Assembly: GCA_024743215.1 (NCBI GenBank)
Contig: JANSWZ010000001.1
Span: 992,001 to 1,056,000 of the forward strand
DNA: 64,000 nt
From: Alphaproteobacteria bacterium
Lineage (GTDB): Bacteria > Pseudomonadota > Alphaproteobacteria > Rhizobiales > GCA-2746425
Reading direction: 5' to 3'
Shown in pieces: positions 1,537-22,832 of this stretch. The notes under the pieces were generated by a model. It was not told the DNA's origin. It was given only the letters and a program-made list of their open reading frames with translations, and did no database searches. A program made the position numbers and the translations under genes. Positions within the stretch are counted from its first letter, which is position 1. Every line of letters begins with the position of its first letter.

Positions 1537-1563
1537 GCTGGTTACTCCTGTTGGAACTACGGC

Positions 1564-5244: not shown

Positions 5245-5293
5245 TGTGTTCTTACAATTCTCGCTAAAGAACCTGAGCGGCAATGTGCAGGGG

Positions 5294-5326
5294 CTGGACT
5301 CAATTTGGAGGTTGAATTGAGTCCAG
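5294..5326. repeat. 12-bp perfect inverted repeat between exoF and exoQ
   Basis: Arms CTGGACTCAATT and AATTGAGTCCAG enclose a 9-base loop (TGGAGGTTG). In the minus-strand transcript it lies 4 bases after the exoF stop and about 50 bases before the exoQ start. No T tract follows, so it is not a classical intrinsic terminator. It may protect the upstream exoYF message, dampen read-through into exoQ, or bind a regulator. Confidence 0.6.
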
Positions 5327-5329
5327 ACC

Positions 5330-6580: not shown

Positions 6581-6610
6581 TTGCTTACTCCCTAAGGTTA
6601 CGCAACCTTG

Positions 6611-6631
6611 CAATGACGTAAAACGTCATTG
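6611..6631. repeat. 9-bp perfect inverted repeat in the exoY-exoF gap
   Basis: CAATGACGT-AAA-ACGTCATTG, 9-bp arms with a 3-base centre. It lies 50 bases after the exoY stop and 31 bases upstream of the preferred exoF start on the minus strand. The tight centre would suit either a dimeric regulator site or a short RNA hairpin. The word ACGTCAT occurs again as part of an imperfect inverted repeat at about 14091-14110, ahead of the plus-strand exo genes, so a shared regulator is possible but not demonstrated. Confidence 0.5.
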
Positions 6632-6680: not shown

Positions 6681-7379
6681 TCAGTAACTGCCCTTAGCCA
6701 GACAAACGACTGGAATCGTTTTGATAATGATCAAGAGATCTGACTGGAATGACCAATTTTTCACGTAAATCTGATCGAGTTCCACACGACGCCCATAGCT
6801 GACATCATTGCGGCCGCTGATTTGCCAAAGCCCTGTCAGACCTGGCCGGGTACTGAGATAATACTGAGCAGCAGCCCCGTATTTTTCCAACTCGTCGCTG
6901 ACCACCGGCCTTGGACCTACTATGCTCATTTCGCCCATCAGGATGTTGAAGAGTTGCGGAAGTTCGTCCAGACTCAGGTTCCTGAGAACCACGCCGATTG
7001 ATGTGATCCGGGGATCATTTTTAAGTTTTCGGTCACGATCCCACTCGACGCGAGCTGACTCGTTTTCAGACAGGTAGATTTCCAACAATTCATCGCTGTT
7101 CGCGGCCATTGTCCGAAATTTCAGGCAATTGAATGCTGTCCCGTTTCGGCCAATGCGGCGATGTCCGTAAAATACAGAACCGCCATCAGTGACCTTGATA
7201 AGAGCAGCTAACATGAGCATCAATGGTGATAGGACGACCAACCCGATTGAGGCGCCGACAATATCAAAAAAACGCTTCAAGGAACTTCTGGATATACGGG
7301 GGAGATTTTCGTTTTGTGCTTGTCGAACTTGGCGTGCTTGTATGCGCCAAGGGGAGGATTTTTCGAAAACAGCCATCAT
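6681..7379 (-). CDS. exoY: Undecaprenyl-phosphate sugar-1-phosphate transferase, ExoY-like
   Basis: A 232-residue short-form bacterial sugar transferase (ExoY/WcaJ C-terminal domain family). KRFFDIVGASIGLVVLSPLMLMLAALIKV (about residues 32-62) is the membrane helix or re-entrant segment; FYGHRRIGRNG, FRTM, LKNDPRITSIG, LRNLSLDELPQLFN and GEMSIVGPRP are the conserved catalytic blocks. GLTGLWQISGRND near the C-terminus is also diagnostic. ExoY starts succinoglycan synthesis by moving galactose-1-phosphate from UDP-galactose to undecaprenyl phosphate; the sugar here is inferred from the cluster. Two adjacent ATG codons follow AAGGAG, and the second has better spacing. It is divergent from exoX, whose product restrains ExoY in rhizobia. 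Confidence 0.9.
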   Translation of the reverse strand: MMAVFEKSSPWRIQARQVRQAQNENLPRISRSSLKRFFDIVGASIGLVVLSPLMLMLAALIKVTDGGSVFYGHRRIGRNGTAFNCLKFRTMAANSDELLEIYLSENESARVEWDRDRKLKNDPRITSIGVVLRNLSLDELPQLFNILMGEMSIVGPRPVVSDELEKYGAAAQYYLSTRPGLTGLWQISGRNDVSYGRRVELDQIYVKNWSFQSDLLIIIKTIPVVCLAKGSY

Positions 7380-7664: not shown

Positions 7665-7919
7665 ATGACTTTGCCAAAATTCTTACTCGGTCTGGTTTGC
7701 ACCACCATCATCGTGACAATGTGGTCATTATATGATGGCGCAGATTTTGTGACCGTGGCGATCAGAGCAGTCATTGTGCTCGTCATCCTGCAGATAGGAT
7801 ATTTTTGTTTCATCCTTATGAAAGTACGCGCACAGCAGAAACCAAAAGTGGACGAAAAAGCGCCAACTGACGCCAAAACATACAGCAAGAGCGAACCCCT
7901 GAAAAAGAGAGTGTCTTGA
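7665..7919 (+). CDS. exoX: Exopolysaccharide production repressor, ExoX/SyrA family
   Basis: An 84-residue membrane protein. The frame is open further upstream, but the ATG at 7665 follows TTGAGGTAG and begins with a short N-terminal helix (LPKFLLGLVCTTIIVTMWSLY), giving the expected size of the family. A second hydrophobic helix (VAIRAVIVLVILQIGYFCFILM, about residues 31-52) ends in LLQxGYF-like residues typical of ExoX. The tail is hydrophilic and Lys-rich, with several Ser/Thr. In Sinorhizobium and Rhizobium (ExoX/PsiA), the protein lowers EPS production post-translationally, apparently through ExoY, and the exoX to exoY ratio matters. Divergence from exoY here fits that role. It is convergent with the lasso exporter gene 25 bases away. 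Confidence 0.78.
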   Translation: MTLPKFLLGLVCTTIIVTMWSLYDGADFVTVAIRAVIVLVILQIGYFCFILMKVRAQQKPKVDEKAPTDAKTYSKSEPLKKRVS

Positions 7920-7944: not shown

Positions 7945-9786
7945 TTAGCCTGCAATCACTTTTGATAAATTTTGCTTACGTTTTTTCCGCAAATTTGAAT
8001 ATTTTCCAGAATCGACAAGTCTGCCTTCCTCCATCGCAATGACATGATCGGCGTGAGCAATCATCGCGTCCCCATGGTCGATGGTCAGAATGGTTGTTTC
8101 ACCACGCAGTTTTTCGATGGTTTCGGCAATCAGGGCCTGATTGACCCAATCCAGTGCGCTCGTGGCTTCGTCAAGCACGAGCAGTTTGGGTTTTCTCAAG
8201 ACAGCACAAGCTATGGCAATCCTTTGGCGTTCACCACCGGACAGCAGCCCTCCTCTTTCCCCGACAATCGTGTCGAGGCCCAGGGGCAGATGTTTTGTAA
8301 ATTTCAGCGCTTGCGCAATATCAAGGGCAGTCGAAATTTCAGCATCATCCGCATCCGGTTTTGAAAAAAGCAAATTGGCTCTGATGGTGTCATGCAGCAG
8401 AAAGACATCCTGATGAACGATAGCGACGTGAGAACGCCATGCTCTTTGATTGTCTGAGCCAATCACCACGCCATCTACGGACATCGTTCCTGACGTCACT
8501 TCAATCAAACCTGCAATGATATCCGCCAGGGTGCTTTTTCCGGCCCCCGATGGCCCGATAAGCGCTGTTACTTTGCCAGCCGGTATTTCCAGCGAGATGT
8601 CACGCAAGGCAAAGTCACGCCCGGCCATCTCGTGACAATAGCTGACATGTGTCAGCGTGATCCCTTTTTGTAGCTTGAAAGAAATCGGCACAGGAGTTTC
8701 CTTGGCCGGTTCCTTTTCCTCTGCAAAGTCTCGGGTCAGGGTCAACACCGAACCATAGGCCGGCAGACTGACAAGGAATTGTTGTACCTGGGTGTGAAGG
8801 CTCAATAATCTCGGTGTGACGCGGACGAAAATCACCAGAAGCACCAGGAACTCCATCATGGAAACCCTGAACACCACCAAAGATACGTAAGCGAAAACAG
8901 CCAGCCCAACAGCACTGGCAATCTGGAAGGCTGCGGCGCCAATGGAGCTTTGATTGACATAGGCCGTGTTGTCTTTGGCTATCCGGGTTAAATTTTGATC
9001 CAGCAGATCGAAATAGAACCGCTCGCCGTTCAACATTTTCGCCATCTTGATGCCGGACAGGAAGTCCGAAATCGTGCGATATTGTTCCTTTCTGTTTCCG
9101 GTGGTCAACACACCAAACTTTGCGGCATTTACGCGAAAAGGCGACAAGCCAGCATAGAGGATTGCCCCCACAACCATCACAATCAAAGTGGTCGGAACAG
9201 AAATCAGCAAACACAGGACGGCATAAACCGCCATAACCACAAGGGTTTGGCATATGTTGAGCAGGAAAAACCCACACGCCTGGATTTTTTCAATGTCTGC
9301 GGTCAGAGCATGCTCCAGTTCCGACTTCCGGCTCTGCGCCACTTTCTCCCAGCGTGCGCGTGCAATTGCGTCGAACAATTCGATGCGCGTTTGATTGAGA
9401 AAGTCGATGAGCATCCGGGCCAGATAAATCGACTTCCATCTGACAAAGAAAGCTTGAAGCGTTACCAGCCCGATGAGCAGTGCGAGTATAACCGGAAGCG
9501 AAACAGCGATGTTGGGCAACCAACCGGAAAAAGCGTCTATCTGGCCAAGCTGCATCACGAACGCGCCATCGGTCTGACTCATGATGTGCAGCAGCGGTAT
9601 CAACAGAAATATGGAAATGCCCTCGGTCAGACTGCCAAACAGCAGCAGTGTGAGCGCCATCCAAAACCGGGCTCCTGAGATCCGCCCTATATGAGCCATT
9701 AGAAGCCGAATTTGTGCCGCTATCTGCTTTCTGCTCATACCAAGACTGTCAGCGGAGTCAGGAAGGTTTGATGGCGCAATGTTCAT
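7945..9786 (-). CDS. Lasso peptide ABC exporter (fused TMD-NBD)
   Basis: A 613-residue type I ABC exporter half-transporter. Six hydrophobic segments fall in about residues 38-335 and the ATPase in residues 370-600: Walker A GPSGAGKST near 413, signature LSGGERQRIAIA near 513, Walker B LLVLDEATSALD, and an H-loop (LTIDHGD). Such D proteins export mature lasso peptide and give self-immunity. It is the last gene of the lasso operon, coupled to the kinase gene by a TGATG overlap at 9786. It lacks the C39 peptidase domain of bacteriocin exporters, as expected because B1/B2 remove the leader. A role in EPS export is unlikely, since Wzx/Wzy genes are present and this gene is coupled to lasso genes. 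Confidence 0.85.
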   Translation of the reverse strand: MNIAPSNLPDSADSLGMSRKQIAAQIRLLMAHIGRISGARFWMALTLLLFGSLTEGISIFLLIPLLHIMSQTDGAFVMQLGQIDAFSGWLPNIAVSLPVILALLIGLVTLQAFFVRWKSIYLARMLIDFLNQTRIELFDAIARARWEKVAQSRKSELEHALTADIEKIQACGFFLLNICQTLVVMAVYAVLCLLISVPTTLIVMVVGAILYAGLSPFRVNAAKFGVLTTGNRKEQYRTISDFLSGIKMAKMLNGERFYFDLLDQNLTRIAKDNTAYVNQSSIGAAAFQIASAVGLAVFAYVSLVVFRVSMMEFLVLLVIFVRVTPRLLSLHTQVQQFLVSLPAYGSVLTLTRDFAEEKEPAKETPVPISFKLQKGITLTHVSYCHEMAGRDFALRDISLEIPAGKVTALIGPSGAGKSTLADIIAGLIEVTSGTMSVDGVVIGSDNQRAWRSHVAIVHQDVFLLHDTIRANLLFSKPDADDAEISTALDIAQALKFTKHLPLGLDTIVGERGGLLSGGERQRIAIACAVLRKPKLLVLDEATSALDWVNQALIAETIEKLRGETTILTIDHGDAMIAHADHVIAMEEGRLVDSGKYSNLRKKRKQNLSKVIAG

Positions 9787-10742
9787 CAGGCCGCCTGCCG
9801 TTCAAGAACGTGCACAAGCTCATCGAGCAGGCCCAGATTGTCGGGAACACTCAAGACGTTGACATGCAACCCCCCTGCGATCTTGGCGCATTGCATCAAA
9901 TGGACAGCAACAGAGTCTCCGACCATCGCAGCAGCGCCGAACCTCGACATGTATGAGTAGCGGATCAGCGCATCGAGACTTTGCCTGCCGGATAGGCACG
10001 TGACCCCTAACTCATTGCCGCGAACCAGAACAAACAGCTTTTCCAATTTTACGCGGAGGCCGGAAAAACCCGACGTCAAGCGGTATCGGTTTTTGTCAAT
10101 GGAAGGATGTGCTTGCGCAAGAATTCTGGATTCTGCCAAGTCTATCCGGGCACCGGCATCTGCCGCCAGCTTGATTTGGGGAAAGCCGGCCAGCACATAG
10201 AAATCACCACCTGCATCACAATCGATAGCTACGATATCATCGGTCAACAATGTATGCCCGGCGGCAACCAATGAAGCCGCGGTTGTTGATTTGCCCGCGC
10301 CCTTGTCTCCCAGAAGGCACAGGCCGCAGCCTTTGATGCCGATGGAACTGGCGTGCAAGATGAACAAGCCACGCTGGTGTAGCAGCACGGCCAGCACCGG
10401 CCCTAACAGCGGAAAGGCGACAAGGTCGTCTCCCACATTATCGGCCTTTTCCACGATGATTTCATGTCCGGATTGCACCTTGAATGTGCCGACAGTATCC
10501 CAATGAAGCACGGCATGACCCTCTTCAAACCGATACCATGTCGTGTCTTCACACGGGGCTCTCTGATCTTCAAAGCGGCCCCTTTTGATCCATGCGTCAG
10601 CAGCACAAGGCGCCACTTCTATCAATTCAGGCAGAACAAATTCGGACGCGAAAACCAGCCCATAGGCTGAGTAAAACCGGGTGGTTTTCGCCGGGCACTC
10701 CTGTGTGGCCATCGCATGGGAAAGGTGTCGGTCAATACTCAA
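9786..10742 (-). CDS. HPr-kinase-like peptide kinase of the lasso cluster
   Basis: A 318-residue protein related to the C-terminal domain of HPr kinase/phosphorylase. ILHASSIGI near residue 127, Walker A GDKGAGKST at about 143-151 and LLTDDIVAID near 165 are the conserved kinase blocks. In lasso clusters, relatives (PadeK of paeninodin, ThcoK, SyanK) phosphorylate the side chain of the C-terminal Ser of the precursor; the precursor here ends in Ser. The gene overlaps the cyclase gene by 11 bases and the exporter gene by 3 bases, so it is translationally embedded in the lasso operon. The N-terminal 110 residues are a variable, probably substrate-binding region. A sugar-metabolism HPr kinase is excluded by lack of PTS context and by low overall similarity outside the P-loop. 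Confidence 0.8.
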   Translation of the reverse strand: MSIDRHLSHAMATQECPAKTTRFYSAYGLVFASEFVLPELIEVAPCAADAWIKRGRFEDQRAPCEDTTWYRFEEGHAVLHWDTVGTFKVQSGHEIIVEKADNVGDDLVAFPLLGPVLAVLLHQRGLFILHASSIGIKGCGLCLLGDKGAGKSTTAASLVAAGHTLLTDDIVAIDCDAGGDFYVLAGFPQIKLAADAGARIDLAESRILAQAHPSIDKNRYRLTSGFSGLRVKLEKLFVLVRGNELGVTCLSGRQSLDALIRYSYMSRFGAAAMVGDSVAVHLMQCAKIAGGLHVNVLSVPDNLGLLDELVHVLERQAA

Positions 10743-12657
10743 CGCTTGTACCCCGCTCCATCTGCTTCAACCAGAGTGACAGCCAGACAGATCGCCACAC
10801 ATGCAGAACGTCATCCAATCTGGCACGGTCACCTTGTTGCGACAGACGTTGAAACGCCTTTCGCAGAAAATCCATGTTCACGTAGGGCGCTATTCTGTCG
10901 GCATCTGTGCCCATGATGGCGCTCATGAGCGCATGATTGTGGCTCAACATGCTGACCGCAATGTTTGATGTGAAATCGGCCTTGTCGCGGCGCCACTGGA
11001 CTTCGGGTGGCAGGATGCCCTCCATCGCCTGTCGAAGGATCAATCGGGTCCAGCCATTGCCCAATTTTTCACTGGCCGGAAGGCCCAGACAAAACAACAA
11101 TAATTCCTTATCCCAGAAGGGATATCGCGGCTCGATACAATTGGCCCCCGCTGCGCGGTCCAACACCTCAAATGCGTGAGGTATGAGAGGATTGGAGACA
11201 ATTTGCAGATGCTCACCCTGTTCGTCGGCTTTTCCCGGCTTTGCGCCTTGCGCAACTGAGTATCTGGCGACCAGATTGGATCGGCGCACCAGATCCTCAT
11301 TTACAAGCTGACGCCATCGCGTTCGTCTCCCAGAGAGTTTTGCCCTCAAGCGATAAGGCAGTATGGAATGAGAGAAGGAGCTGAATGAGTTGAACAGATT
11401 GCCTGACGCAGCGAACCGGCTTGTCAACAATTGCAAGCATATCGCAGCGGGGCTGACATTCAGGGTTTTTGCTACACCACAGGCCTCCCGCCACAAGCTC
11501 AGCCAGCGGCACTGGTCCGTCAATTCCCTAAGCCGACCATATCCGTGGGACACAACTTCATCACCGCCATGACCATCCAGAAGCACATGTTGCCCGTTGG
11601 CCCTGGCCTGCGCATAGATAGAACGGATGTTTGACAACCCAGGCGCCAGAAACAACTCCGATTGCTCCCGAAGCACACTTTCATGATGCGCAAAAGGCTC
11701 CGGCATTTCCGGGCCAAGGACATGAGACTTAAATCCACCTGTATTCAGCACAGATTGAATGGAATGGATTTCATCCGCGCCGCTTCCACGCTCGAATACG
11801 AGTGAGTATGCGTCAAGTGCGCCCTGCCCTTGTATTGACCTAAGATTACGAGCAACACAGGCAATGGAAGATGAATCCAGTCCTCCTGAAAGCATAACTC
11901 CCACTTGTTCGGTTCCACGCATCCTGTTCGCCACAGAGCGTGTAAAAAGTTCCGCAAATGCGTCTGGCAATTCAGCCTGCGCAATGGGTGGACTTGGTCC
12001 GGCCACCCAATATCCGGCGGTGTGAACATCATCTCGGGTGATCGTCATGTAATTTCCGGGCGGCAAACGGTTGATCTGTTGAAACGCCGTCCTGTCGGTC
12101 TCGTTGGGAAGGCCAACCAAAAAATCGGCAATGCGATCTTCGTCAACATTCAATCCACTGCCCTCCATTTCAACAAGTGCCGAAATGCTTGATGCAACTG
12201 AAAATTGCATTCTTGTCAGCCGAAAATAAAATGGCTTGATACCAAAACGGTCCCGCGCGCAGAACGCCAATTGTCTGGAATTGTCCCATATCACGAACGC
12301 GAAATCGCCATCCAGATGAGCCAGCATGCTCTCGCCCCATCTTCGATAGGCCTTCAACACCAACTCGCTGTCTGTGATACCGCCGGCGCAATTTCCCAAT
12401 ATGGGTATGAGCGCTTCTCGGTTGTCCAATCTGATGTCTCCGACAATCGAAAGCGATTTGCCATGTAACGAAAACGGTCCGCCCTTACGTTCCCCTGAAG
12501 TATTCGCCCAACCAAGCCCAAGCGTCATTGGACCAATGGTCAAAACCTTCTGACCATCAGAGAATCTGGCCTGCATCGTCGACAGCATATTGTGCAGACA
12601 CGTTTCAGTTGACCCACCACTCGTTCCCCTGCTGAAAATGCCTGCAATGGCGCTCAT
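10732..12657 (-). CDS. Lasso peptide macrolactam synthetase (asparagine synthetase homologue, C protein)
   Basis: A 641-residue AsnB-like protein. The N-terminal half (about 1-190) resembles a class II glutamine amidotransferase domain (SAIAGIFSRG, RFGIKPFYF) but has Ser in place of the catalytic Cys2, so it should not use glutamine. The C-terminal half has the PP-loop MLSGGLDSSS near residue 250 and GHGGDEVVSHGYGRL near 360. Lasso C enzymes adenylate the side-chain carboxylate of an Asp or Glu at core position 7-9 and close it on the N-terminal amine, trapping the tail in the ring. It sits between B2 (11-base gap upstream) and the kinase gene (11-base overlap). An ordinary asparagine synthetase is unlikely given the Cys loss and the neighbours. 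Confidence 0.88.
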   Translation of the reverse strand: MSAIAGIFSRGTSGGSTETCLHNMLSTMQARFSDGQKVLTIGPMTLGLGWANTSGERKGGPFSLHGKSLSIVGDIRLDNREALIPILGNCAGGITDSELVLKAYRRWGESMLAHLDGDFAFVIWDNSRQLAFCARDRFGIKPFYFRLTRMQFSVASSISALVEMEGSGLNVDEDRIADFLVGLPNETDRTAFQQINRLPPGNYMTITRDDVHTAGYWVAGPSPPIAQAELPDAFAELFTRSVANRMRGTEQVGVMLSGGLDSSSIACVARNLRSIQGQGALDAYSLVFERGSGADEIHSIQSVLNTGGFKSHVLGPEMPEPFAHHESVLREQSELFLAPGLSNIRSIYAQARANGQHVLLDGHGGDEVVSHGYGRLRELTDQCRWLSLWREACGVAKTLNVSPAAICLQLLTSRFAASGNLFNSFSSFSHSILPYRLRAKLSGRRTRWRQLVNEDLVRRSNLVARYSVAQGAKPGKADEQGEHLQIVSNPLIPHAFEVLDRAAGANCIEPRYPFWDKELLLFCLGLPASEKLGNGWTRLILRQAMEGILPPEVQWRRDKADFTSNIAVSMLSHNHALMSAIMGTDADRIAPYVNMDFLRKAFQRLSQQGDRARLDDVLHVWRSVWLSLWLKQMERGTSVEY

Positions 12658-12668
12658 AGTTTCACCGC

Positions 12669-13088
12669 CTAGATATCCACCATGGTCGCATAGCGTGGCA
12701 TGTCAGAAGCCTGTCCACCCAACACAACAAACCCGCCGCTTAGAAGCCACGCATGTGCCTTCATATTGTTGCGATTATCCCGCTCAATCCCAATTCTGAC
12801 GATGGAACGGCAGTTGTGTCTTGCCATCAAATACTGCCCGGCCAGAGCCTGTGTCAGACACGTTGCACCAGGGACAAAACGGGCGCATGCAACAACCCCC
12901 CATGCGATCATCCTTGCTGTCTTTTGATCTCCCTCTTCAGTAACTTGAATCGCTGAAATCGTCCGCATGATGAAAGAAGCGCACTTCAGTGACAGAGCAA
13001 TACGAATGAAACACAACACAATAATACAATGGGCCAAAAACACTTTTTCTGAAAACTTCAAATTTAAAAACCGAATTAAATTTGTCAT
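12669..13088 (-). CDS. Lasso peptide leader peptidase B2 (transglutaminase-like)
   Basis: A 139-residue protein of the lasso B2 / Transglut_core3 type. The likely nucleophile Cys77 sits in PGATCLTQALAGQYLM and the catalytic His112 in MKAHAWL, the pattern expected for a papain-like protease; GG follows in FVVLGG. B2 cuts the leader from the precursor with help from B1 and ATP. It overlaps B1 by 4 bases (ATGA), so B1 and B2 are a split version of the single B protein seen in microcin J25. The 5' end is unusually AT-rich compared with neighbouring genes. Residues 14-35 are hydrophobic, common in this family. Confidence 0.85.
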   Translation of the reverse strand: MTNLIRFLNLKFSEKVFLAHCIIVLCFIRIALSLKCASFIMRTISAIQVTEEGDQKTARMIAWGVVACARFVPGATCLTQALAGQYLMARHNCRSIVRIGIERDNRNNMKAHAWLLSGGFVVLGGQASDMPRYATMVDI

Positions 13089-13390
13089 GGCGACGCCAAT
13101 AAATTGTATTTCTCAAATTCTGAGAGAATTTTTTCAATATCTGAACGACATACTTCTTTTTTAATTTGAAATTTTTCTTCTATATATTTACATATTTCAT
13201 CTTTGGACGAGGGATTTTGTATGAATTCCCAGATATCTGCACCGACAGAATTTAGACTGTAATAGACATTACTTTTCAAATGAAGCAGCGCTATGCCCTC
13301 GCCGAACTCGCAAGCGACAACTTCGGGGGAGGCTTTCAGACTGAGGGATACAGGGGCACGATCTTCTGTCATAGGTAAAGAACCATTCAT
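13085..13390 (-). CDS. Lasso peptide B1 protein (PqqD-like RiPP recognition element)
   Basis: About 101 residues of PqqD-like fold. The conserved core is VVACEFGEGIALLHLKSNVYYSLN, then ADIWEFI and a helical C-terminus (EICKYIEEKFQIKKEV, IEKILSEFEKYNLL), matching PqqD/RRE proteins that bind the leader peptide and deliver it to B2. I prefer the ATG at 13390, with a short AGG about 10 bases upstream; starts at 13399 (ATG) or 13447 (TTG) are possible. Gene overlap with B2 supports joint translation. The last third is AT-rich, unlike the upstream precursor gene. It lies 159 bases after the precursor stop, separated by a hairpin. Confidence 0.83.
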   Translation of the reverse strand: MNGSLPMTEDRAPVSLSLKASPEVVACEFGEGIALLHLKSNVYYSLNSVGADIWEFIQNPSSKDEICKYIEEKFQIKKEVCRSDIEKILSEFEKYNLLASP

Positions 13391-13463
13391 TGCTAACATA
13401 CCTGACAATTCCCGCCCAACTCGGCAACTGCCTACGAATTTGATCAACCGACAAACGTGGACA

Positions 13464-13490
13464 GACTGGTCAAAGACTGGTCAAAGACCA
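13464..13490. repeat. Short tandem repeat, GACTGGTCAAA twice plus GACCA
   Basis: Two exact 11-base units (13464-13474, 13475-13485) followed by a partial third unit, between the precursor-gene hairpin and the B1 gene. Its function is unknown. It could be replication slippage or part of an mRNA-processing element. Confidence 0.6.
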
Positions 13491-13499
13491 CTCATGCCC

Positions 13500-13531
13500 A
13501 AAGCTGCCCGGCGCTATGCCGAGCAGCCTTT
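13500..13531 (-). terminator. Stem-loop between lasso precursor gene and B1 (leaky terminator or mRNA stabiliser)
   Basis: In the minus-strand transcript, AAAGGCTGCTCGGC pairs with GCCGGGCAGCTTT around a short ATAGC loop, with one bulged G and one G-U pair. It starts 18 bases after the precursor stop codon. No long U tract follows, so it probably allows partial read-through and keeps precursor mRNA in excess over the biosynthetic genes, as reported for other lasso clusters. Confidence 0.65.
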
Positions 13532-13548
13532 CTTTGGACGCCTTCCTT

Positions 13549-13707
13549 CTAAGAGAAGGTCAAATCCCCAAATGTTGTTCCAATCGGAAAAGCAGCATCA
13601 AGCGCCGATCCGGTAGAAGCTCCTTGGGTTATCTGTTCGATTGAACCGTGGACCGTGAGACACGGCGCTTCGTATTTCGGGTTCAACCTTTTCGAAGCTG
13701 TTTTCAT
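13549..13707 (-). CDS. Lasso peptide precursor (A gene), 52 aa
   Basis: A 52-codon gene starting ATG at 13707, with AGGGAG 8 bases upstream and stop TAG at 13549. The leader (28 residues, from MKTASKRLNPK) contains the RRE-recognition motif YxxPxLxxxGxxxxxT exactly: Tyr12, Pro15, Leu17, Gly21 and Thr27, with Thr at position -2 of the predicted cut. Cleavage after Gln28 frees a 24-residue core whose first nine residues are GASTGSALD, so Gly1 can join the Asp9 side chain in a 9-membered-residue ring. The tail is AAFPIGTTFGDLTFS; Phe residues at core positions 12, 18 and 23 are candidate steric plugs. The core ends in Ser, fitting the kinase in the operon. The other Gly start (Gly33) would place Asp only at position 5, too close for a ring. 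Identity as a precursor is strong; ring and plug details are inferred. Confidence 0.93.
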   Translation of the reverse strand: MKTASKRLNPKYEAPCLTVHGSIEQITQGASTGSALDAAFPIGTTFGDLTFS

Positions 13708-14192
13708 CAAAATCTCCCTTCACTCCTTGTCGGAACTTGCGGTTTTTGATCGCGCGGAACCATCCCGCACACGATGAGTAAGACCAGCGTCATATCGCAT
13801 GTCAAGAAAAAATGACCGAATACTTATCAAATTAAATTAAAGATTAGATACGCCCCTAATTTGATTGATTTTTCTCTTAAATGCTCAAATTTTCATCATT
13901 TCTACTTATTAACGAAAATCCCCTCTGTATTATGCCTGTTTTTTAGGCGTTTTTACCTGCTGCCTAAATTGTGTTCTTTCCGCCCCACTTTTTTTCTTCA
14001 ATAATTACAATATCTTATGTTTTCAAGCTGAACTTGCAGTTCAATCTGGAACAATATTCAGCCACATTTTTGATCGCTTTTCGCAGTAAAAACGTCATGA
14101 AATGATGTTTGACGGACGCTGATTTTTAATATTTACTTTGTGAGGGAGGCAACGACTACCAAGACTGATAGCGAGAGCAACAGGGCTTGTTT
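13708..14192. other. AT-rich divergent intergenic region, lasso operon / plus-strand exo genes
   Basis: No gene is visible. The stretch 13810-14140 is markedly AT-rich. It contains the candidate lasso promoter on the minus strand and, on the plus strand, a weaker TTGACG at 14109 followed 17 bases later by TTTACT, ahead of the fused transferase gene. An imperfect inverted repeat (ACGTCAT-GAA-ATGATGT) lies just before that -35 element. Confidence 0.5.
13777..13805 (-). promoter_or_regulatory. Candidate promoter of the lasso operon
   Basis: On the minus strand, TTGACA (13805-13800, preceded by C as in the alphaproteobacterial CTTGAC consensus) is followed after 17 bases by CTTACT (13782-13777). 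The predicted start of transcription would leave a leader of roughly 60 bases before the precursor start codon. The -10 match is modest. Confidence 0.45.
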
Positions 14193-16424
14193 ATGATACA
14201 GATCGCCGCCACCCCTACCCAATTCGGTCCACTCGCCAACGTTACAGATACTTTTCACACGGTCTCAGATTCCCTCGGCAAATATGTATTTGCCGAAATC
14301 GCAGGCCAGAAAAGGCGGCTGCGTGACATCGAAAGCAGTGATGCACTTCAGGAATTTCTGCGCACCAACAAAGTCGCAAATTTCCTGTGTGCCTGGCAAA
14401 TGCCTGTAAGTTCGGAATATCGCAAGCTCTATTTATGGTTGAACAACTATCGCAAACGGACCGCGCTTCTGAATGCGATCTGTCTTTCCCATATCTCGAA
14501 AATTTCGAGTGCACTGGTGAAAGCTGATGTTGAGTTCCTCGTTTTCAAGGGCGTTATTCAACAGAAAATCCTCTATGGCAGCTATTTTATAAAACCCGCT
14601 GGTGATGTTGATTTGCTCGTTCACGGCAAAGACTTCAAGCGAGCCAGAGACGTACTGGGAACTATTGGATTTGCCGTTATCGACAGATCGGATTCAAGTT
14701 GGTGGGTCAATTTTCTTGGCGAACAACATCTTGAGCCGCGCCAAACAGGCTCCCCGGCCATCGATCTTCATTACAGAATCCAGCAACCCGGCTCTCCGCA
14801 ACCATCTGACACTAGTGAATTTTTAAAACGGAAACAGTGGGTCGATGTTGCCGGGATCAAGGTGCCATTCATGCACCCGGATGATTTTTTGCTCATGTCG
14901 TCGATCAGCATAGCCAAGTCGATGTTCAATCGTGAGCCATGCGGAGGCCACGTCGCTGATATTCATGCGAGCCTGTGTCATTTACGACCACAGCACATTT
15001 CGACCATTCAGGCTTTCAGCAAGCGTCAGGGTCTGTCGGCCATTCTCGCGCTCGGCCTTCGTTCTGCAAAAGCGATCCTGAATGTCGGTCATCCAATGAC
15101 AAAATCGACCAAACCAGAGGTTCTGGCTTCGGTCAGCGACGCATCCCTGAGGAAACTCCTGCTTCTACCCGATAAAAACTCCCCAAGTTGGCCCAAGCGC
15201 CGACAGGTGTTGTGGGAGCTTTGCGAACACTCTCCGATCAGATTTGCCCGTGAATCCACATGGGCGATATCCGCAGATGTCTGTCGTCGCTTCACACAGG
15301 AAACACGCACTGCGAAGCCACGCCAGTTGGATAAGGGTCAGAATATGCAAAATACCCACGGGCATGGAGACACAACGGAAACCCGAGTTGAAAACCCGCA
15401 GCAAAATCGCAACACAAAATCTGTTTGCGTGATTATCGCTGCCTACAATGCAGAAGATTCAATTGCTCGGGCTGTGACGTCAGCTCTCAGTCAGACGGAG
15501 GTATCAGAAGTCATTGTTGTGGATGATGCTTCGACCGACACCACAGTCGGCTCAGCGCAGCTTGCGGAAGACGGAAGCCACCGTCTGAAATTGATTGAGT
15601 TGCCGCAAAATGTTGGTCCTGCAGAAGCCAGAAACATCGCCATCGACAATTCCAACGCTCCGCTGATTGCCATGCTGGATGCAGATGATTTTTTCCTGAA
15701 GGATCGTTTCAAACCGCTGATTGAAGACGATGATTGGGATTTTATTGGCGACAATATCGTGTTTTTGAATGAGGAAGCCATTGGCGCGTTTGAAACCACG
15801 GAGTTGTTAGGCAACAGCCCCAAACAAACAACACTGAGTTTCGCCGAATTTATTGCCGGGAACATTTCCAAACGCGGCCTGGTGCGCGGCGAATTGGGAT
15901 TTATCAAACCCGTCATGAAACGGGATTTCCTACAAACGCACGGCATCCGATACCAGAGCGATCTTCGCCTGGGTGAGGACTATGAACTGTATTCAAGAGT
16001 GCTTCTGAAACAGGCCCGCTTCAAAATCTCACCATCCTTGGGATATGGCGCGATCATTCGTTCCAATTCACTCAGCGCAAAACATCATACATCGGATCTG
16101 AGAGCGTTGGTAAATGCTGACCGGGCCATGCTGGATGACCGTGATTTGTCTGTTGCAGACCGCTCAATTTTGATGCGCCACGAACGGCACATCCATAGCA
16201 AGTTCGCGCTTCGTGAATTTCTCGATCTGAAGAATGACAAAACCGCGTGGCAGGCCGTGAAATTTGCCTGCTCAAGCCCGTCGACCTTTCTTGCAGTGTT
16301 TAGCGGTGTTGCTTTTGACAAGATTGGAAAAATCGGCCTGCCAAAAAGCCATAAATCGCCAGCGAACATTTACCGAGACCAACAGGTCTTGTTTCCGGTC
16401 AGCGGAATTGGGGCCAATCAATGA
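14193..16424 (+). CDS. Fusion of a NTP_transf_5-type nucleotidyltransferase and an ExoU-like GT2 glycosyltransferase
   Basis: A 743-residue protein; ATG at 14193 follows CAGGG, better than the TTG six bases upstream. Residues about 45-330 resemble the nucleotidyltransferase family found in many lasso and other RiPP clusters: FLVFKGV, then KPAGDVDLLV near 135-143 (the GDxD metal motif) and HPDDFLLM near 230. Residues about 330-405 form a polar linker rich in Gln, Asn and Thr. Residues about 408-640 are a GT2 domain: VCVIIAAYNAEDSI, VIVVDDAS, AMLDADDFFL and LGEDYELY. The GT2 half resembles succinoglycan side-chain transferases such as ExoU. A PsmN-type nucleotidyltransferase in the pseudomycoidin lasso cluster is, to my recollection, linked to hexose addition on phosphorylated Ser. 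Whether this fusion acts on the lasso peptide, the EPS, or both is open. Confidence 0.75.
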   Translation: MIQIAATPTQFGPLANVTDTFHTVSDSLGKYVFAEIAGQKRRLRDIESSDALQEFLRTNKVANFLCAWQMPVSSEYRKLYLWLNNYRKRTALLNAICLSHISKISSALVKADVEFLVFKGVIQQKILYGSYFIKPAGDVDLLVHGKDFKRARDVLGTIGFAVIDRSDSSWWVNFLGEQHLEPRQTGSPAIDLHYRIQQPGSPQPSDTSEFLKRKQWVDVAGIKVPFMHPDDFLLMSSISIAKSMFNREPCGGHVADIHASLCHLRPQHISTIQAFSKRQGLSAILALGLRSAKAILNVGHPMTKSTKPEVLASVSDASLRKLLLLPDKNSPSWPKRRQVLWELCEHSPIRFARESTWAISADVCRRFTQETRTAKPRQLDKGQNMQNTHGHGDTTETRVENPQQNRNTKSVCVIIAAYNAEDSIARAVTSALSQTEVSEVIVVDDASTDTTVGSAQLAEDGSHRLKLIELPQNVGPAEARNIAIDNSNAPLIAMLDADDFFLKDRFKPLIEDDDWDFIGDNIVFLNEEAIGAFETTELLGNSPKQTTLSFAEFIAGNISKRGLVRGELGFIKPVMKRDFLQTHGIRYQSDLRLGEDYELYSRVLLKQARFKISPSLGYGAIIRSNSLSAKHHTSDLRALVNADRAMLDDRDLSVADRSILMRHERHIHSKFALREFLDLKNDKTAWQAVKFACSSPSTFLAVFSGVAFDKIGKIGLPKSHKSPANIYRDQQVLFPVSGIGANQ

Positions 16425-16496
16425 GGCTTAACCTACAACCCAGTGGCGCAGCCATATCGATATTGTGCACCGGGCCAACCCAAGTGGTGGCGTAAA

Positions 16497-17765
16497 ATGG
16501 TTTTCAACTACATCAGAAATCGGACCAATCCCAACAACAGCGAATTTTATGTTCGGTCCATGGCGCGGGATATGGCAACAGATTCCAAGCGATTTGAACA
16601 ATTGGTTCGCAATATTCGTCACTGCAGCGAATCCATCCAACAAGAACTCTCAGGATTGCAATCCCGTTCCCAGAACGCAGCGGCATCTGCAGCCTTCCTG
16701 CTGGACACAATGGATAGTGGCGATGCTCCTGAGAACTCTGACAAACGATCAGACGAACTGACAGAAACATTGATGGCGTGTCAGTCCAGAATTCTGGCGC
16801 TTTCAGAGCAGCACAAAAGAGTTGGGGAGCTTGAAAAGCTGGCCCTGAAATTGACCGCAGATGACGACTCACCTGAGACTGACGTCGTCAGTGATATGGG
16901 AGTTGCACCTTCCAGTGCTTCGGTCCATGGAGTGAAACCAATTCCAGAAAACAAGACAGGCAAGCTGTTCGTTGCGGCCGCCCTGATCGCGTCAATCTGT
17001 GTATCGGGACTGACGGCGCTTCGGTCTGAACCCTCCTTTGCAGATGATTTGGACAGCGGCGTTTCCTTTGTCGATGACTTCAATTCTCTGGACTCAAGCC
17101 GCTGGTACATCTCTGACGGATGGGCCAATGGCGATCACCAAAACTGCACTTGGTCAAAAGGGGCAACCGGCATTTCAGATGACATGCTTGTGCTGCAATT
17201 CAAGCAGCAGGCAACCACTGATCGCGACTATGTCTGTGGCGAAGTACAAACCTATGCGCGATTTGGATATGGCGTCTATGAGGCTCGGATCAAAACCGGT
17301 AGCGGCTCTGGCCTCAATGCTGCATTTTTCACCTATATCGGACCGGTGCATAAAAAGCCTCATGATGAGATCGATTTTGAGTTTCTCCTGAAAGATACAA
17401 GCAAAGTGCAACTCAATTATTATGTGGGTGGCAGTGGCGGCAATGAGGCTCTAATTCCTCTTGACGGCACGTCAGACAGTGGCTTCAACAACTACGCGTT
17501 TGTCTGGGAACCGGGGCAAATGCATTGGTACGTTAACGGTAATCTGGTCCATCAGACCAGTGAATCTGATGTGCTGCCGAGCAGCCTCCAAAAAATTTAT
17601 TTCAGCCTATGGGGATCAGACACTTTTGTCGATTGGATGGGTCCCTTTTCCGCGCCGGATGAGCCGGTGTTGATGTTCATCGACCGGGTTGCTTTCACCA
17701 GCTTTGATGAGCCTTGTCAGTTCGATGAATCCGTCGCCTGCAATTTTGAACCAGCGGGTAACTGA
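16497..17765 (+). CDS. exoK: Glycoside hydrolase family 16 endo-glucanase, ExoK-like, with long cytoplasmic N-terminal extension
   Basis: A 422-residue protein from ATG 16497 (a GTG at 16443 is possible). The C-terminal half is a GH16 domain: SFVDDFNSLDSSRWYIS, GNxT-like region, GYGVYEARIKTG and the active-site motif DEIDFEF near residue 290, with the two catalytic Glu residues; VWEPGQMHWYVNG follows. In Sinorhizobium, secreted ExoK cleaves nascent succinoglycan. Unusually, here the domain is preceded by about 150 residues of charged, helix-forming sequence and then one hydrophobic segment (KLFVAAALIASICVSGLTAL, about 154-173). That looks like a signal anchor with a cytoplasmic coiled-coil tail, so the enzyme may be membrane-tethered. 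The usual ExoK is about 270 residues. Confidence 0.8.
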   Translation: MVFNYIRNRTNPNNSEFYVRSMARDMATDSKRFEQLVRNIRHCSESIQQELSGLQSRSQNAAASAAFLLDTMDSGDAPENSDKRSDELTETLMACQSRILALSEQHKRVGELEKLALKLTADDDSPETDVVSDMGVAPSSASVHGVKPIPENKTGKLFVAAALIASICVSGLTALRSEPSFADDLDSGVSFVDDFNSLDSSRWYISDGWANGDHQNCTWSKGATGISDDMLVLQFKQQATTDRDYVCGEVQTYARFGYGVYEARIKTGSGSGLNAAFFTYIGPVHKKPHDEIDFEFLLKDTSKVQLNYYVGGSGGNEALIPLDGTSDSGFNNYAFVWEPGQMHWYVNGNLVHQTSESDVLPSSLQKIYFSLWGSDTFVDWMGPFSAPDEPVLMFIDRVAFTSFDEPCQFDESVACNFEPAGN

Positions 17766-17766
17766 T

Positions 17767-19008
17767 ATGCGCCCGCAGAACCTTCAGGAACCCGGCAGGC
17801 ATGGAAGGGCGTCACCCCACTTTCTGTATCTTGTGCACGACCTTGCAGATCCGGCTGTTCGCAGACGCCTCATGATGTTCCAGGCTGGCGGTGCAGATGT
17901 TGCAATAGCCGGTTTCAGGCGATCGCAGGCTCCCATTACTCTTGTCGATGATGTTGCTCCCATTGAGCTTGGGCAAACCGAGAATGGAAATTTCGTGCAA
18001 CGCGCTGTTGCCGTTGTGAAGTCCACACTGTCCATCCGCAGCAGGTTTGGGCATTTGGCGAAACCCGATGTGATCATAGCTCGAAACCTTGAGATGCTGG
18101 TGATCGCTGTCCGTCTGAAATCATTTTTTGGCTCACCAGAAATCAAGATTGCCTATGAGTGCCTCGATATCCATCGCCTGATGTTGCGCACGGACCAGAT
18201 GGGCAGCGCCTTAAGGGGCCTTGAAAGGCGGTTGCTTAGACATGTCTCCATCATCATCACGAGTTCACCGGCATTTGTACGCAACTATTTCAGACCTCTG
18301 GCTGACGTCACTCAGCCAATCGAAATTGTTGAAAACAAGCACCTTGAACTGGCCAATGTTTCTACAACAGACGGAACTTTGGCCGGTGCGCGCACGCACT
18401 CCCCTTGGAAAATCGGGTGGTTTGGAGCGCTCAGATGTAAACGTTCCCTGGAAGTGCTTTCGGAATTTACGCAGGAGCAACAAGGAAAGTTTGTAATTGT
18501 CCTGCGCGGCATTCCTTCACTGGATGTCTTCCCGGATTTTCATGAATTCGTTGAAGCCCAGCCTTTCATGTCTTTCGAAGGGCGCTACAAAAATCCAGAA
18601 GACCTATCGGCTATCTATGAAGACGTACACTTCTCCTGGGTGATCGATCTGTTTGAGGCAGGACAAAACTCTGCGTGGCTTTTGCCAAACAGGCTGTATG
18701 AGGGATGTCGTTTCGCAGCGGTTCCCATTGCCGTAACGAGCACTGAAACCGCAGAATTCCTGTCTTCAAAACTCATCGGCATTACGATGGAAGAGTTGTC
18801 CGTATCTGAGCTCTCGAGGGTGCTGAGCACGCTTACCAGCGAGCAGTATTACGCCCACCGTAATGCGGTAACATCGCTTCCCAAAAAACAGTGGGTTTGC
18901 GATTTGAAGGATTGTGAGGCGTTGGTTTCAAAGATTGTTGGCTCGGTTGTCACCAGCCTTTCCAGTGCCCAAGAGGTTCCCGCCTCAGTTTCCCTGGAAA
19001 GAACTTAG
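17767..19008 (+). CDS. exoL: Succinoglycan-type glycosyltransferase ExoL
   Basis: A 413-residue protein starting at the ATG at 17767, one base after the exoK stop; an open upstream extension overlaps exoK and is not used. PHFLYLVHDLADPAVRRRL near the start followed by QAGGADVAIAGFRR is the ExoL signature. The rest has a GT-B-like pattern (PDVIIARNLEMLVIA, IAYECLDIHRL, IGWFGALRCKRSLE). ExoL adds a glucose in the second or third step of succinoglycan repeat-unit assembly on the lipid carrier at the cytoplasmic membrane face. The gene sits in the conserved order exoK-exoL-exoA-exoM-exoO-exoN-exoP. The C-terminal 20 residues are Ser-rich and poorly conserved. Confidence 0.85.
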   Translation: MRPQNLQEPGRHGRASPHFLYLVHDLADPAVRRRLMMFQAGGADVAIAGFRRSQAPITLVDDVAPIELGQTENGNFVQRAVAVVKSTLSIRSRFGHLAKPDVIIARNLEMLVIAVRLKSFFGSPEIKIAYECLDIHRLMLRTDQMGSALRGLERRLLRHVSIIITSSPAFVRNYFRPLADVTQPIEIVENKHLELANVSTTDGTLAGARTHSPWKIGWFGALRCKRSLEVLSEFTQEQQGKFVIVLRGIPSLDVFPDFHEFVEAQPFMSFEGRYKNPEDLSAIYEDVHFSWVIDLFEAGQNSAWLLPNRLYEGCRFAAVPIAVTSTETAEFLSSKLIGITMEELSVSELSRVLSTLTSEQYYAHRNAVTSLPKKQWVCDLKDCEALVSKIVGSVVTSLSSAQEVPASVSLERT

Positions 19009-19009
19009 T

Positions 19010-19999
19010 ATGGCGAGCTCAAATCGATACACCGCCCTGATTATCATTCCCTGTTTGAATGAAGAAGCTCACATTGGTTCACTGCTGGCTCAGCTGGCAG
19101 TCAAAACCGATCCTGAAAAATTCAAGATCATTGTCGCCGATGGCGGCAGCCAGGACAGAACAAGAAAGATTGTCGAGAAATTCAGTTCCGAACATCCAAA
19201 CATTGTCTTGTTTGACAATCCCTACAAAATCCAAAGCTGGGCTGTGAATCTTTGTGTCAGCGAGTTTGGTGATGAAGCGGATTACCTCATCAGGATCGAT
19301 GCACATTGCGAATACCCGGACGATTATTGCGCGCAATTGATTCAGGAAGCCAAGGCAACCAATGCGGATTCCGTTGCTGTTTCAATGGACACTGTAGGGC
19401 TCAGGACTTTTCAGAAATCCAACGCAGCCGCGCAAAATTCAAAGCTTGGCAATGGCGGTTCAAAACACAGATCAATCGTGTCGGGTCAATGGGTCGATCA
19501 TGGTCATCATGCCCTGATGACCATTTCCGCGTTTTGCGATGTTGGCGGCTACGATGTTGCCTTCAAGGCCAATGAAGATGCGGAACTGGACTACCGTTTG
19601 TCCGCTGCCGGCTATCGGATTTGGCTCACCAGCAAAACCAGATGCACGTATTATCCACGTCAGACCATTGTCAGCCTGTTCCGCCAGTATCAGAATTATG
19701 GCTTCGGCAGAGCCCAAAACCTGATCAAACACCGTGTGGTGCCCAAAGCCAGACAATTGCTTCCAGTGACCATTTTGCCAATCATCCTGCTGTCGACTCT
19801 TACGGTCTTTCATTGGGCAGCCATCATGCCGCTTATCCTATGGATGGGCGTCTGTCTCTCTTACGGATTCTATCTGGCTTATCAACAACGAGATTGGTCA
19901 ATCTCACTGGCCGGTCTGTCAGCCATGACCATGCATCTGGCCTGGTCGATCGGCTTCTGGCGACAGATGGCTGTCGCCGCTACGAAACCGGGCGATTGA
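19010..19999 (+). CDS. exoA: Succinoglycan beta-1,3-glucosyltransferase ExoA
   Basis: A 329-residue GT2 with a C-terminal membrane portion. The start at 19010 (MASSNRYTALIIIPCLNEE) follows the exoL stop by one base. IIVADGGSQDRT, IRIDAHCEYP (DxD-type, near residue 95), GQWVDHGHHAL, and KANEDAELDYRL with RQTIVSLFRQYQNYGFGRAQNL (Q-x-x-x-Y/W-like motif) are visible. Two or three hydrophobic helices lie in residues about 250-315 (LLPVTILPIILLSTLTVFHW, LAGLSAMTMHLAWSIGFW). ExoA adds the first glucose to galactose-pyrophosphoryl-undecaprenol in a beta-1,3 linkage. It lies in the exoKLAMONP block, 4 bases before exoM. Confidence 0.88.
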   Translation: MASSNRYTALIIIPCLNEEAHIGSLLAQLAVKTDPEKFKIIVADGGSQDRTRKIVEKFSSEHPNIVLFDNPYKIQSWAVNLCVSEFGDEADYLIRIDAHCEYPDDYCAQLIQEAKATNADSVAVSMDTVGLRTFQKSNAAAQNSKLGNGGSKHRSIVSGQWVDHGHHALMTISAFCDVGGYDVAFKANEDAELDYRLSAAGYRIWLTSKTRCTYYPRQTIVSLFRQYQNYGFGRAQNLIKHRVVPKARQLLPVTILPIILLSTLTVFHWAAIMPLILWMGVCLSYGFYLAYQQRDWSISLAGLSAMTMHLAWSIGFWRQMAVAATKPGD

Positions 20000-20003
20000 G
20001 CTT

Positions 20004-20954
20004 ATGAGGCATCCGGGCGAAACAACTTCAATCGATATTTGTGTGTGCACGTTTCAACGCGTCGAACTCCTTCACACTCTGGAATCTCTCGACAGACTGA
20101 AGATGATGAAGGACCATGAGGTTCGTATCATTGTTGTCGACAATGACTGGAAGCCAACTGCAAAAGCACTGGTTGACGATTTCGCAAAGAAATCCAAACA
20201 TCCGATTGCCTATCTGCATGCCCCTGCGGGCAACATCTCCATAGCGAGAAACAAGTGTCTGGAAGCGAGTACAGCCAAGCTTGTCGCCTTTATCGATGAT
20301 GATGAAATCGTGACGGAAAACTGGTTGAAATGCCTGATACAGGAAATGCAGACTTCCGGGGCTGACGTGGTATTGGGCCCTGTGATTGCACGCCATCTGG
20401 ACCCTGCGCCGAATTGGCTCAAATCTGGTGATTTCCATTCCACCTATCCTGTTTGGATCAAAGGACAGATCAGAACTGGTTATACCTGCAATGTGTTGAT
20501 GAAAATGAGCGCGCCCAGCCTTTCGGGACGCCGGTTCAACCTGTTGCGTGGTCAAACCGGCGGTGAGGACACAGAATTCTTCAAAAAAGTGTTCGAATGC
20601 GGCGGCCGGTTTTCATATAGTGAAAACGCAATTGTAACCGAAACCGTCCCTGAAAAGCGCGCTACATTTGACTGGCTCATGAAGAGACGGTTTCGCGCAG
20701 GTCAAACCCATGGCAAGCTCCTTGCAGAACCCCTTGGTACAGCTGCAAAGGTGTTCGAAACTGCTCGTGCACTTTCAAAGGTTTTCTATTGTGCCCTTTG
20801 CTATTGCCTGCACATCACAAGTCGCACCCGGCGAAACACAGCACTTTTGCGCGGTGGTCTGCATATCGGAACTGTCAGCGGGATACTTGGGTTCAATGAG
20901 TTAGAGCAATACGGAATGTCCGCAAGCACAGGGGTCAGCAATGAGCCAACCTGA
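20004..20954 (+). CDS. exoM: Succinoglycan glucosyltransferase ExoM
   Basis: A 316-residue GT2. IDICVCTFQRVELLHTLESL at the start, RIIVVDNDWKPTA, GNISIARNKCLEAS and AFIDDDEIV (about residue 93) are characteristic of ExoM, as is the later GQTGGEDTEFFKKVFE block. WLMKRRFRAGQTHG near residue 220 is another conserved patch. ExoM adds the beta-1,4 glucose in the early backbone of the succinoglycan octasaccharide; that linkage is taken from the Sinorhizobium pathway. The 3' end overlaps exoO by 14 bases, suggesting coupled translation. The C-terminus has one hydrophobic helix that may hold it at the membrane. Confidence 0.88.
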   Translation: MRHPGETTSIDICVCTFQRVELLHTLESLDRLKMMKDHEVRIIVVDNDWKPTAKALVDDFAKKSKHPIAYLHAPAGNISIARNKCLEASTAKLVAFIDDDEIVTENWLKCLIQEMQTSGADVVLGPVIARHLDPAPNWLKSGDFHSTYPVWIKGQIRTGYTCNVLMKMSAPSLSGRRFNLLRGQTGGEDTEFFKKVFECGGRFSYSENAIVTETVPEKRATFDWLMKRRFRAGQTHGKLLAEPLGTAAKVFETARALSKVFYCALCYCLHITSRTRRNTALLRGGLHIGTVSGILGFNELEQYGMSASTGVSNEPT

Positions 20955-21873: not shown

Positions 21874-21908
21874 ATCACATGAATCTAAACCGTAACTTTT
21901 GAGGATAT

Positions 21909-22802: not shown

Positions 22803-22832
22803 TTTCGGCTGTGTGAACCAGAAACGATCATC

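Follow-up and report, generated by a model that had tools for sequence, protein, structure and literature searches.

The short minus-strand gene at positions 13549 to 13707 of the window, which is the whole 64,000-nucleotide stretch analysed here, looks like a genuine lasso-peptide precursor gene. It is part of a cassette that is embedded in an exo locus of the succinoglycan type and flanked there by exoX- and exoU-like genes. Judged by gene families and context, this cassette is made up of seven genes, A-B1-B2-C-K-D and NT, and NT shares one open frame with an exo glycosyltransferase (GT). A first-pass annotation of this DNA had described the precursor; the embedding in the exo locus and the shared NT-GT frame, which it had not seen, are the more informative part. 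We estimate a probability of about 0.6 that the product is a phosphorylated, further tailored lasso peptide that works with the exopolysaccharide (EPS), acting on it, in it or attached to it.

The precursor open reading frame (ORF) comprises 52 codons on the minus strand, as the first-pass annotation had it, and starts with an ATG at 13707, with a TTG one codon 5' of it. The good ribosome-binding site described earlier is AGGGAG, located six bases ahead of the ATG. The encoded protein consists of a 28-residue leader, MKTASKRLNPKYEAPCLTVHGSIEQITQ, and a 24-residue core, GASTGSALDAAFPIGTTFGDLTFS. The leader harbors an exact YxxPxLxxxGxxxxxT motif, with all residues from Tyr12 to Thr27 as claimed (Tyr12, Pro15, Leu17, Gly21 and Thr27, the Thr standing at -2). 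This motif occurs once in a six-frame translation of the window; 200 windows simulated with a second-order Markov model averaged 0.02 occurrences. The core begins with Gly1, carries Asp9 and ends with a Ser, and an isopeptide ring between Gly1 and Asp9 with threading of the tail is predicted for it. The NCBIfam precursor model NF033528 gives the precursor 32.3 bits, just below the cutoff of 33, so that automatic annotation could overlook it; a Pfam search returned no match for it. It had also been proposed that the gene lies below usual size cut-offs. This was overstated, as 52 codons alone do not usually fall under gene-finder limits. A text search of literature titles and abstract openings showed no characterised lasso peptide matching the core.

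The B1, B2 and C genes lie directly beside the precursor, as reported before, and are recognized by Pfam and NCBIfam models. B1 is a PqqD-like RiPP recognition element (13085 to 13447, minus strand; Pfam PqqD, 57.3 bits) whose closest solved relative is TbiB1 (5v1u; phmmer E 7e-7). Its ORF starts with TTG and the true start may be further in. The putative leader peptidase B2 is transglutaminase-like (12669 to 13088, minus strand; NF033537, 63.3 bits, cutoff 33; Transglut_core3), and the putative lasso cyclase C is asparagine-synthase-like (10732 to 12657, minus strand; NF033535, 566.3 bits, cutoff 525; Asn_synthase). The HPr-kinase-like candidate peptide kinase K (9786 to 10742, minus strand; Hpr_kinase_C) and the MsbA-like ABC exporter D (7945 to 9786, minus strand; ABC_tran) complete the minus-strand order A, B1, B2, C, K, D. 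For D, all 25 NCBIfam ABC models among the matches listed scored below cutoff. K carries the His, Lys, Ser, Asp and Asp residues of known lasso kinases, and its H130, K151, S152, D168 and D169 are invariant among 15 aligned kinases. These residues are reported to matter in known lasso kinases (PMC9266682, PMC10368454), and the C-terminal Ser is the phosphorylation site in paeninodin and pseudomycoidin (PMC9266682). The predicted target of K is the Ser at the C-terminus of the core. The mass additions of 80 Da for which the first-pass annotation had allowed are thus sensible, because the cluster contains an HPr-kinase-like gene bearing the known lasso-kinase residues. The monoisotopic masses calculated for the window product are 2285.085 as the lasso, 2365.051 with HPO3 and 2527.104 with HPO3 and a hexose; the corresponding values for MAFF303099 are 2257.065, 2337.031 and 2499.084.

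The spacer between A and B1 (13470 to 13548, minus strand) folds into a strong hairpin (z -5.5 versus 100 mononucleotide shuffles), and a similar stem is found in G080, a genome of the same genus (z -2.6). The hairpin may determine how much precursor is made relative to the enzymes. It was less clear in the Mesorhizobium spacers that were folded. Between 13440 and 14200, sigma-70-type promoters gave 0 matches versus 1.3 expected. Isopeptidase-type proteobacterial lasso clusters are adjoined by isopeptidase and TonB receptor genes; a Pfam search of 19 window proteins (514 to 25211) detected no receptor, sensor kinase, isopeptidase or TonB receptor.

The exo-side border of the cassette is an exoX-like small membrane ORF, named by position only (7665 to 7919, plus strand). 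It is followed by an exoY-like undecaprenyl-phosphate sugar phosphotransferase (6681 to 7379, minus strand; assigned from Bac_transf and synteny) and an exoF-like polysaccharide export protein (5330 to 6613, minus strand; Poly_export). GT2, polysaccharide pyruvyltransferase, Wzx-like and Wzy/ExoQ-like genes at 514 to 5370 (minus strand) belong to the same exo locus. On the other side of the cassette lie an exoK-like GH16 endo-glycanase (16443 to 17765, plus strand; NF052392, 383 bits, cutoff 350) and, within 17689 to 25211 except for 21909-22802, plus-strand exoL-, exoA-, exoM-, exoO- and exoP-like genes whose names come from colinearity with pSymB; Pfam gave no match for the exoL-like ORF. 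The ExoQ-, F-, Y-, U-, K-, L-, A-, M-, O- and P-like proteins are colinear with the exo region of Sinorhizobium meliloti pSymB. The Wzx- and pyruvyltransferase-like genes also match inside that region and are placed elsewhere in the window. The exo gene names used here follow the gene order of pSymB and PMC8227245 and are presumptive, as the pSymB stretch carries no annotation. In Mesorhizobium, homologues of the exoX-like ORF (32-43% identity) are found at this position whether or not the cassette is present. An exoX-like ORF was found beside exoY in seven of 12 loci tested, from the window genus and from Mesorhizobium with and without the cassette; among these 12, no such match was seen in L156, the S. 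meliloti stretch, Brevundimonas or Salinarimonas.

The frame divergent from the precursor is a single ORF of 745 residues, with an NTP_transf_5 domain at residues 85-298 followed by a GT2 domain at residues 414-514. Its first half is NT (14187 to 15371, plus strand; Pfam PF14907), and its second half (15417 to 16424, plus strand; Glycos_transf_2) is an ExoU orthologue by sequence and position. D140-x-D142 and D193 of NT are invariant in an alignment of 22 sequences, three Asp as in pol-beta-type nucleotidyltransferases. No solved structure resembled NT by sequence at E 0.1. The GT2 half shares 46% identity (288 bits) with the S. meliloti pSymB gene beside exoX and exoY, the next best match there being 36% (117 bits). 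The name ExoU for that pSymB gene is presumed from the gene order, plus the gene list in PMC8227245. In both window-genus species that have it, the fusion ORF is unbroken at 745 residues (82% identity). It contains a conserved internal Met387, and a separate start of the GT at this codon is possible. Wherever the junction was read in Mesorhizobium-type loci, NT and GT formed two adjacent genes, either out of frame with each other or divided by a stop codon. A candidate fusion in L085 was rejected, a stop codon standing between NT and GT.

We searched named genomes with an alignment of kinases, which confirmed 135 loci, the best 80 of which were analysed. A scan of genome contigs with a single kinase sequence had yielded 47 pattern stretches and no confirmed relative; the alignment-based scan worked. 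Within the best 80 of the 135 loci, C and K are present in 80, B1, B2 and D in 79 and A in 78, along with NT in 77, GT in 76, ExoY in 73, ExoF in 72 and GH16 in 71. Seventy-two of these loci are of Mesorhizobium type (L022-L092 and L099, with L073, L082 and L091 under other or unspecific names). In 70 of the 72, the 11 genes are all present with identical order and strands (exoF-exoY-D-K-C-B2-B1-A, then NT-exoU-exoK), and the two others, L049 and L091, are ended by contig edges. A precursor profile matched 105 of 144 Mesorhizobium genomes passing a 90% completeness filter, 102 of them over the full length; the weak partial matches of G335, G431 and G379 are outside the 102. M. japonicum MAFF303099 has the complete cluster at the same place.

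Across the order, a search with the precursor matched eight of 297 genomes at E 0.01, the window's own genome included. One of the eight, G115 (E 0.009), is likely a chance match, with no match to the cluster queries within 20 kb around it. Six relatives whose regions were fetched have precursors of 53-94% identity at the same place, and the gene order in G080 is the same as in the window. The other three genomes of the window genus gave no match to the precursor profile or to NT. Of these three, G040 matches the GT weakly (26% across some 95 residues) and G145 the kinase profile weakly (24.5 bits).

A full-length precursor match is lacking in 42 of the 144 Mesorhizobium genomes. We probed 23 of these 42 for exoY (20 with no precursor match and three with a weak one), and 22 of the 23 have an ExoY-like match at E 1e-40. 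Exo regions were fetched from 14 genomes, leaving out G431, G328, G326 and G247 (exoY matches of 67-89%). Thirteen of the 14 loci contain exoF, exoY, the exoU-like GT and exoK, and in the same 13 the queries A, B1, B2, C, K, D and NT found nothing at E 1e-5 and 45 bits. The remaining locus, L148, shows exoY only and lies near a contig end. NT, with its PF14907 domain, is thus present or absent together with the cassette as far as these 14 regions go. Since the lasso-less loci keep the GT without NT, NT belongs to the cassette and the GT to the exo locus; since they keep the exo genes without A to D or NT, and exoX-like ORFs occur in both kinds of loci, the cassette consists of A to D plus NT. 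The 13 loci keep their EPS genes, and the cassette is therefore not required for EPS synthesis. Distant kinase-profile matches (E 1e-22 to 1e-25) lie elsewhere in the genomes G335, G379, G431 and G332, with weaker ones in others. In G335 and G379 (L159, L160), the weak precursor match falls in a cyclase and kinase cluster of another, more distant kind, and in G431 the weak precursor match has a distant kinase match some 1.6 kb away.

Lasso status changes four times on a tree of ExoF (85 rows) and five times on a poorly resolved tree of ExoY (86 rows); both are quick trees with long branches to the window genus, leaving out ten loci (L049, L091, L093-L098, L100, L101), and the counts of changes are raw counts. 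On the ExoF tree, a single starred clade holds 69 of the 70 lasso-positive rows of Mesorhizobium. The lasso-less L147 is nested in this clade, and L066 lies outside it among lasso-less rows. Between cassette and exo genes, protein distances show correlations of 0.81-0.92 over 67 of 71 loci (without L049, L053, L068 and L085), for instance 0.92 for C with the ExoU-like GT and 0.83 for C with ExoF (Mantel p 0.001, 67 loci). The exo genes correlate among themselves at 0.77-0.91. Such co-inheritance within one genus can be explained by linkage alone.

The Mesorhizobium precursors are under strong purifying selection. Over 67 distinct sequences from 71 loci, pN/pS is 0.13 for the whole precursor, 0.03 for the leader and 0.26 for the core. 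Values computed from 25 sampled loci per gene are 0.29 for B1, 0.33 for B2, 0.36 for K, 0.26 for NT, 0.20 for GT and 0.14 for ExoY; the precursor value is lower than those of B1, B2, K, NT and GT and equal to that of ExoY. In the best 80 of the 135 kinase loci, the precursor was found by its motif in 78; in addition, the core of L098, read by eye, is GASRGSQLDATFPTGTPFGELTFS, which is close to the window core and agrees with it in Asp9 and the C-terminal Ser, and L100 is a cut contig. Asp9 and a C-terminal Ser occur in every one of the 78 cores found by motif; the Gly1-Asp9 ring foreseen by the first-pass annotation has both of its residues in the window and its Asp in all 78. Residue 1 of the 78 cores is Gly in 75, Ala in two and Ser in one; the L068 core has an unread residue at position 2. 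One identical core recurs in 23 of the 72 Mesorhizobium-type loci from the best 80 of 135. The cores of L093 and L097 are 30 residues long and contain two Cys (for example ASGCPDALDAQFPAGTPFGDLTCGPDGGLS), which may make them a disulfide-bearing variant.

Beyond Mesorhizobium, exo genes surround five of six close homologues with full flanks versus none of 14 distant kinase/cyclase loci (Fisher p 4e-4, from small and partly related numbers, as the set of six includes two Brevundimonas and two related Erythrobacter-type genomes). The five are L093 (Aurantiacibacter), L096 and L098 (Brevundimonas), L097 (Porphyrobacter) and L101 (Salinarimonas rosea), each with at least four exo matches at most some 10 kb from the kinase, arranged differently from those of Mesorhizobium. 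The sixth, L095 (Salinarimonas ramus), has no exo match, and Pfam detected no EPS family in 10 flanking ORFs. L094 and L100 are on short contigs and stand outside the context count. The 14 distant loci (L159-L172, from 12 genomes) gave no match to the exo queries from the window, which diverged EPS genes could escape; ten ORFs from two of these loci contained no EPS family according to Pfam.

These features can be arranged in a mechanism. B1 would bind the leader and K would phosphorylate the C-terminal Ser of the core, with PadeK, ThcoK, SyanK and PsmK as precedents. B2 would cleave after Gln28, and C would close Gly1 on Asp9 around the tail. NT, functioning as PsmN does, would then modify the phosphate by adding a nucleotidyl or sugar group, and D would export the product. 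The genes would be expressed together, and the peptide would be made at the time of EPS production. An extension of this scheme, which we regard as unlikely, is that the exopolysaccharide is covalently joined to the lasso peptide: the phospho-Ser made by K would be nucleotide-activated or glycosylated by NT, and the fused ExoU, whose substrate is the EPS repeat unit, would transfer sugar or peptide between this product and the EPS. If so, EPS chains would carry a mechanically interlocked peptide, and in Mesorhizobium the legume receptor EPR3 would survey, among other things, EPS bearing the peptide.

Other readings compete with a functional link between the peptide and EPS. The product could be an ordinary phosphorylated lasso peptide of the paeninodin or pseudomycoidin kind, acting freely, perhaps as an antimicrobial or a signal, from a cassette that landed in the exo locus and was carried along by linkage. 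Every part is known from paeninodin-type clusters, and stable linkage in one genus does not need a shared function. The lasso-less L147 within the lasso-positive ExoF clade, the 42 of 144 genomes with no full-length match and the one homologue outside EPS genes (L095) fit such a history as well. We nevertheless consider it somewhat improbable, because five of the six homologues in other genera are among exo genes in other arrangements, because the NT-ExoU frame is open in two species, and because the core evolves slowly, down to the identical sequence in 23 of 72 loci (best 80 of 135), unlike a diversifying toxin. The strong conservation of the core would also suit a lasso regulator or signal, secreted or intracellular, that adjusts EPS synthesis, for example via the adjacent exoX/exoY control, and stays apart from the polymer, and the cassette does adjoin exoX- and exoU-like genes in both the window genus and Mesorhizobium. 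This appears distinctly improbable, since the 19 window proteins scanned with Pfam include no receptor, sensor kinase or isopeptidase and since a regulator would leave the NT-ExoU frame unexplained. That the ORF is decayed or arose by chance, and yields no peptide, is suggested by its shortness and by the NF033528 score just under the curated cutoff. The motif is expected 0.02 times per window, the enzyme set is full, and the precursor is conserved in two families and under purifying selection in relatives; we rejected this reading on selection and hold it to be extremely improbable.

The peptide proposed here, tailored and working with EPS, resembles several known systems. Paeninodin-type clusters (PadeK, ThcoK, SyanK) likewise have separate B1 and B2, a cyclase, an HPr-kinase-like K with His, Lys, Asp and Asp, and a C-terminal Ser (PMC9266682), whereas the present cassette lies in a Gram-negative exo locus and has NT in frame with an ExoU-like GT. 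The pseudomycoidin cluster also pairs a kinase, PsmK, with an annotated nucleotidyltransferase, PsmN, which is needed for hexoses on the phospho-Ser (PMC9266682). It differs in that NT bears a C-terminal ExoU-like GT in the window genus or adjoins exoU in Mesorhizobium, PsmN being likened to NT by description. Both a glycosyltransferase and a nucleotidyltransferase followed by a host glycosyltransferase have been considered for PsmN (PMC9266682), and the natural NT-ExoU frame fits the option of a nucleotidyltransferase with a separate glycosyltransferase. In Bacilli, paeninodin-like lasso clusters are found within polysaccharide (capsule) loci, and the family of linear polyphosphorylated peptides (LPPs) shares the RRE, an HprK-like kinase, an NTP transferase and an MsbA-like transporter (PMC13381572). 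In contrast to both, the present cassette is alphaproteobacterial, has a fixed exoX/exoU position in Mesorhizobium and shows the NT-ExoU frame. Membership of the LPP family was rejected, as a cyclase is present here and the leader differs from the YxxPxVLxHQ type. The Bradymonas system BsfA/BsfK has A, B1, B2, C and D together with kinase and nucleotidyltransferase genes, but BsfK acts on Ser3 of a core that ends in Asp, with Ile at -2 of the leader (PMC10368454), as opposed to the invariant C-terminal Ser and the Thr at -2 found here. HPr kinase, nucleotidyltransferase and family 2 glycosyltransferase genes also occur in ruminal lasso clusters (PMC7533575).

The succinoglycan-type exo loci of S. 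meliloti pSymB and M. loti have the same exo genes in the same general order, and differ from the window locus, which carries the lasso cassette between the exoX- and exoU-like genes. The M. loti exo cluster is given as exoQFYXUKTLAMONP (PMC8227245). The same paper describes the EPS structure, exo mutants and the plant receptor EPR3 for M. loti R7A, a close relative of MAFF303099, and has no word starting with 'lasso', 'asparagine' or 'PqqD' (PMC8227245). A 2026 paper only speculates on a biofilm role of phosphorylated lasso peptides in Bacilli (PMC13381572). In titles and abstract openings, with most subscription journals outside the coverage, no description of a lasso cluster in Mesorhizobium or Rhizobium, or with exopolysaccharide, was found. 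A lasso cluster in a polysaccharide locus is thus of a known kind, and the alphaproteobacterial exo placement, the spread in Mesorhizobium and the NT-ExoU frame appear, within this coverage, to be new. A placement in the exo locus that is common to many Mesorhizobium genomes is a clue to what such peptides do, and, alongside the naturally lasso-less relatives, the NT-ExoU frame is a molecular pointer to the role of phosphorylated lasso peptides. With the cassette at a fixed place in most Mesorhizobium genomes searched, including that of the Lotus symbiont MAFF303099, this role is testable in a tractable symbiont.

Of 385 genomes sampled evenly across the class, 11 matched the kinase profile at E 1e-30, and among these only the window's own genome scored as a close relative; the close family is therefore rare. 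At two of the distant lasso-kinase loci, a sulfotransferase gene adjoins the kinase (L164, 10300-11286; L167, 10318-11151), perhaps for sulfated peptides, and one alphaproteobacterial genome, G527 (L164, L165, L172), has five matches to the lasso-kinase profile.
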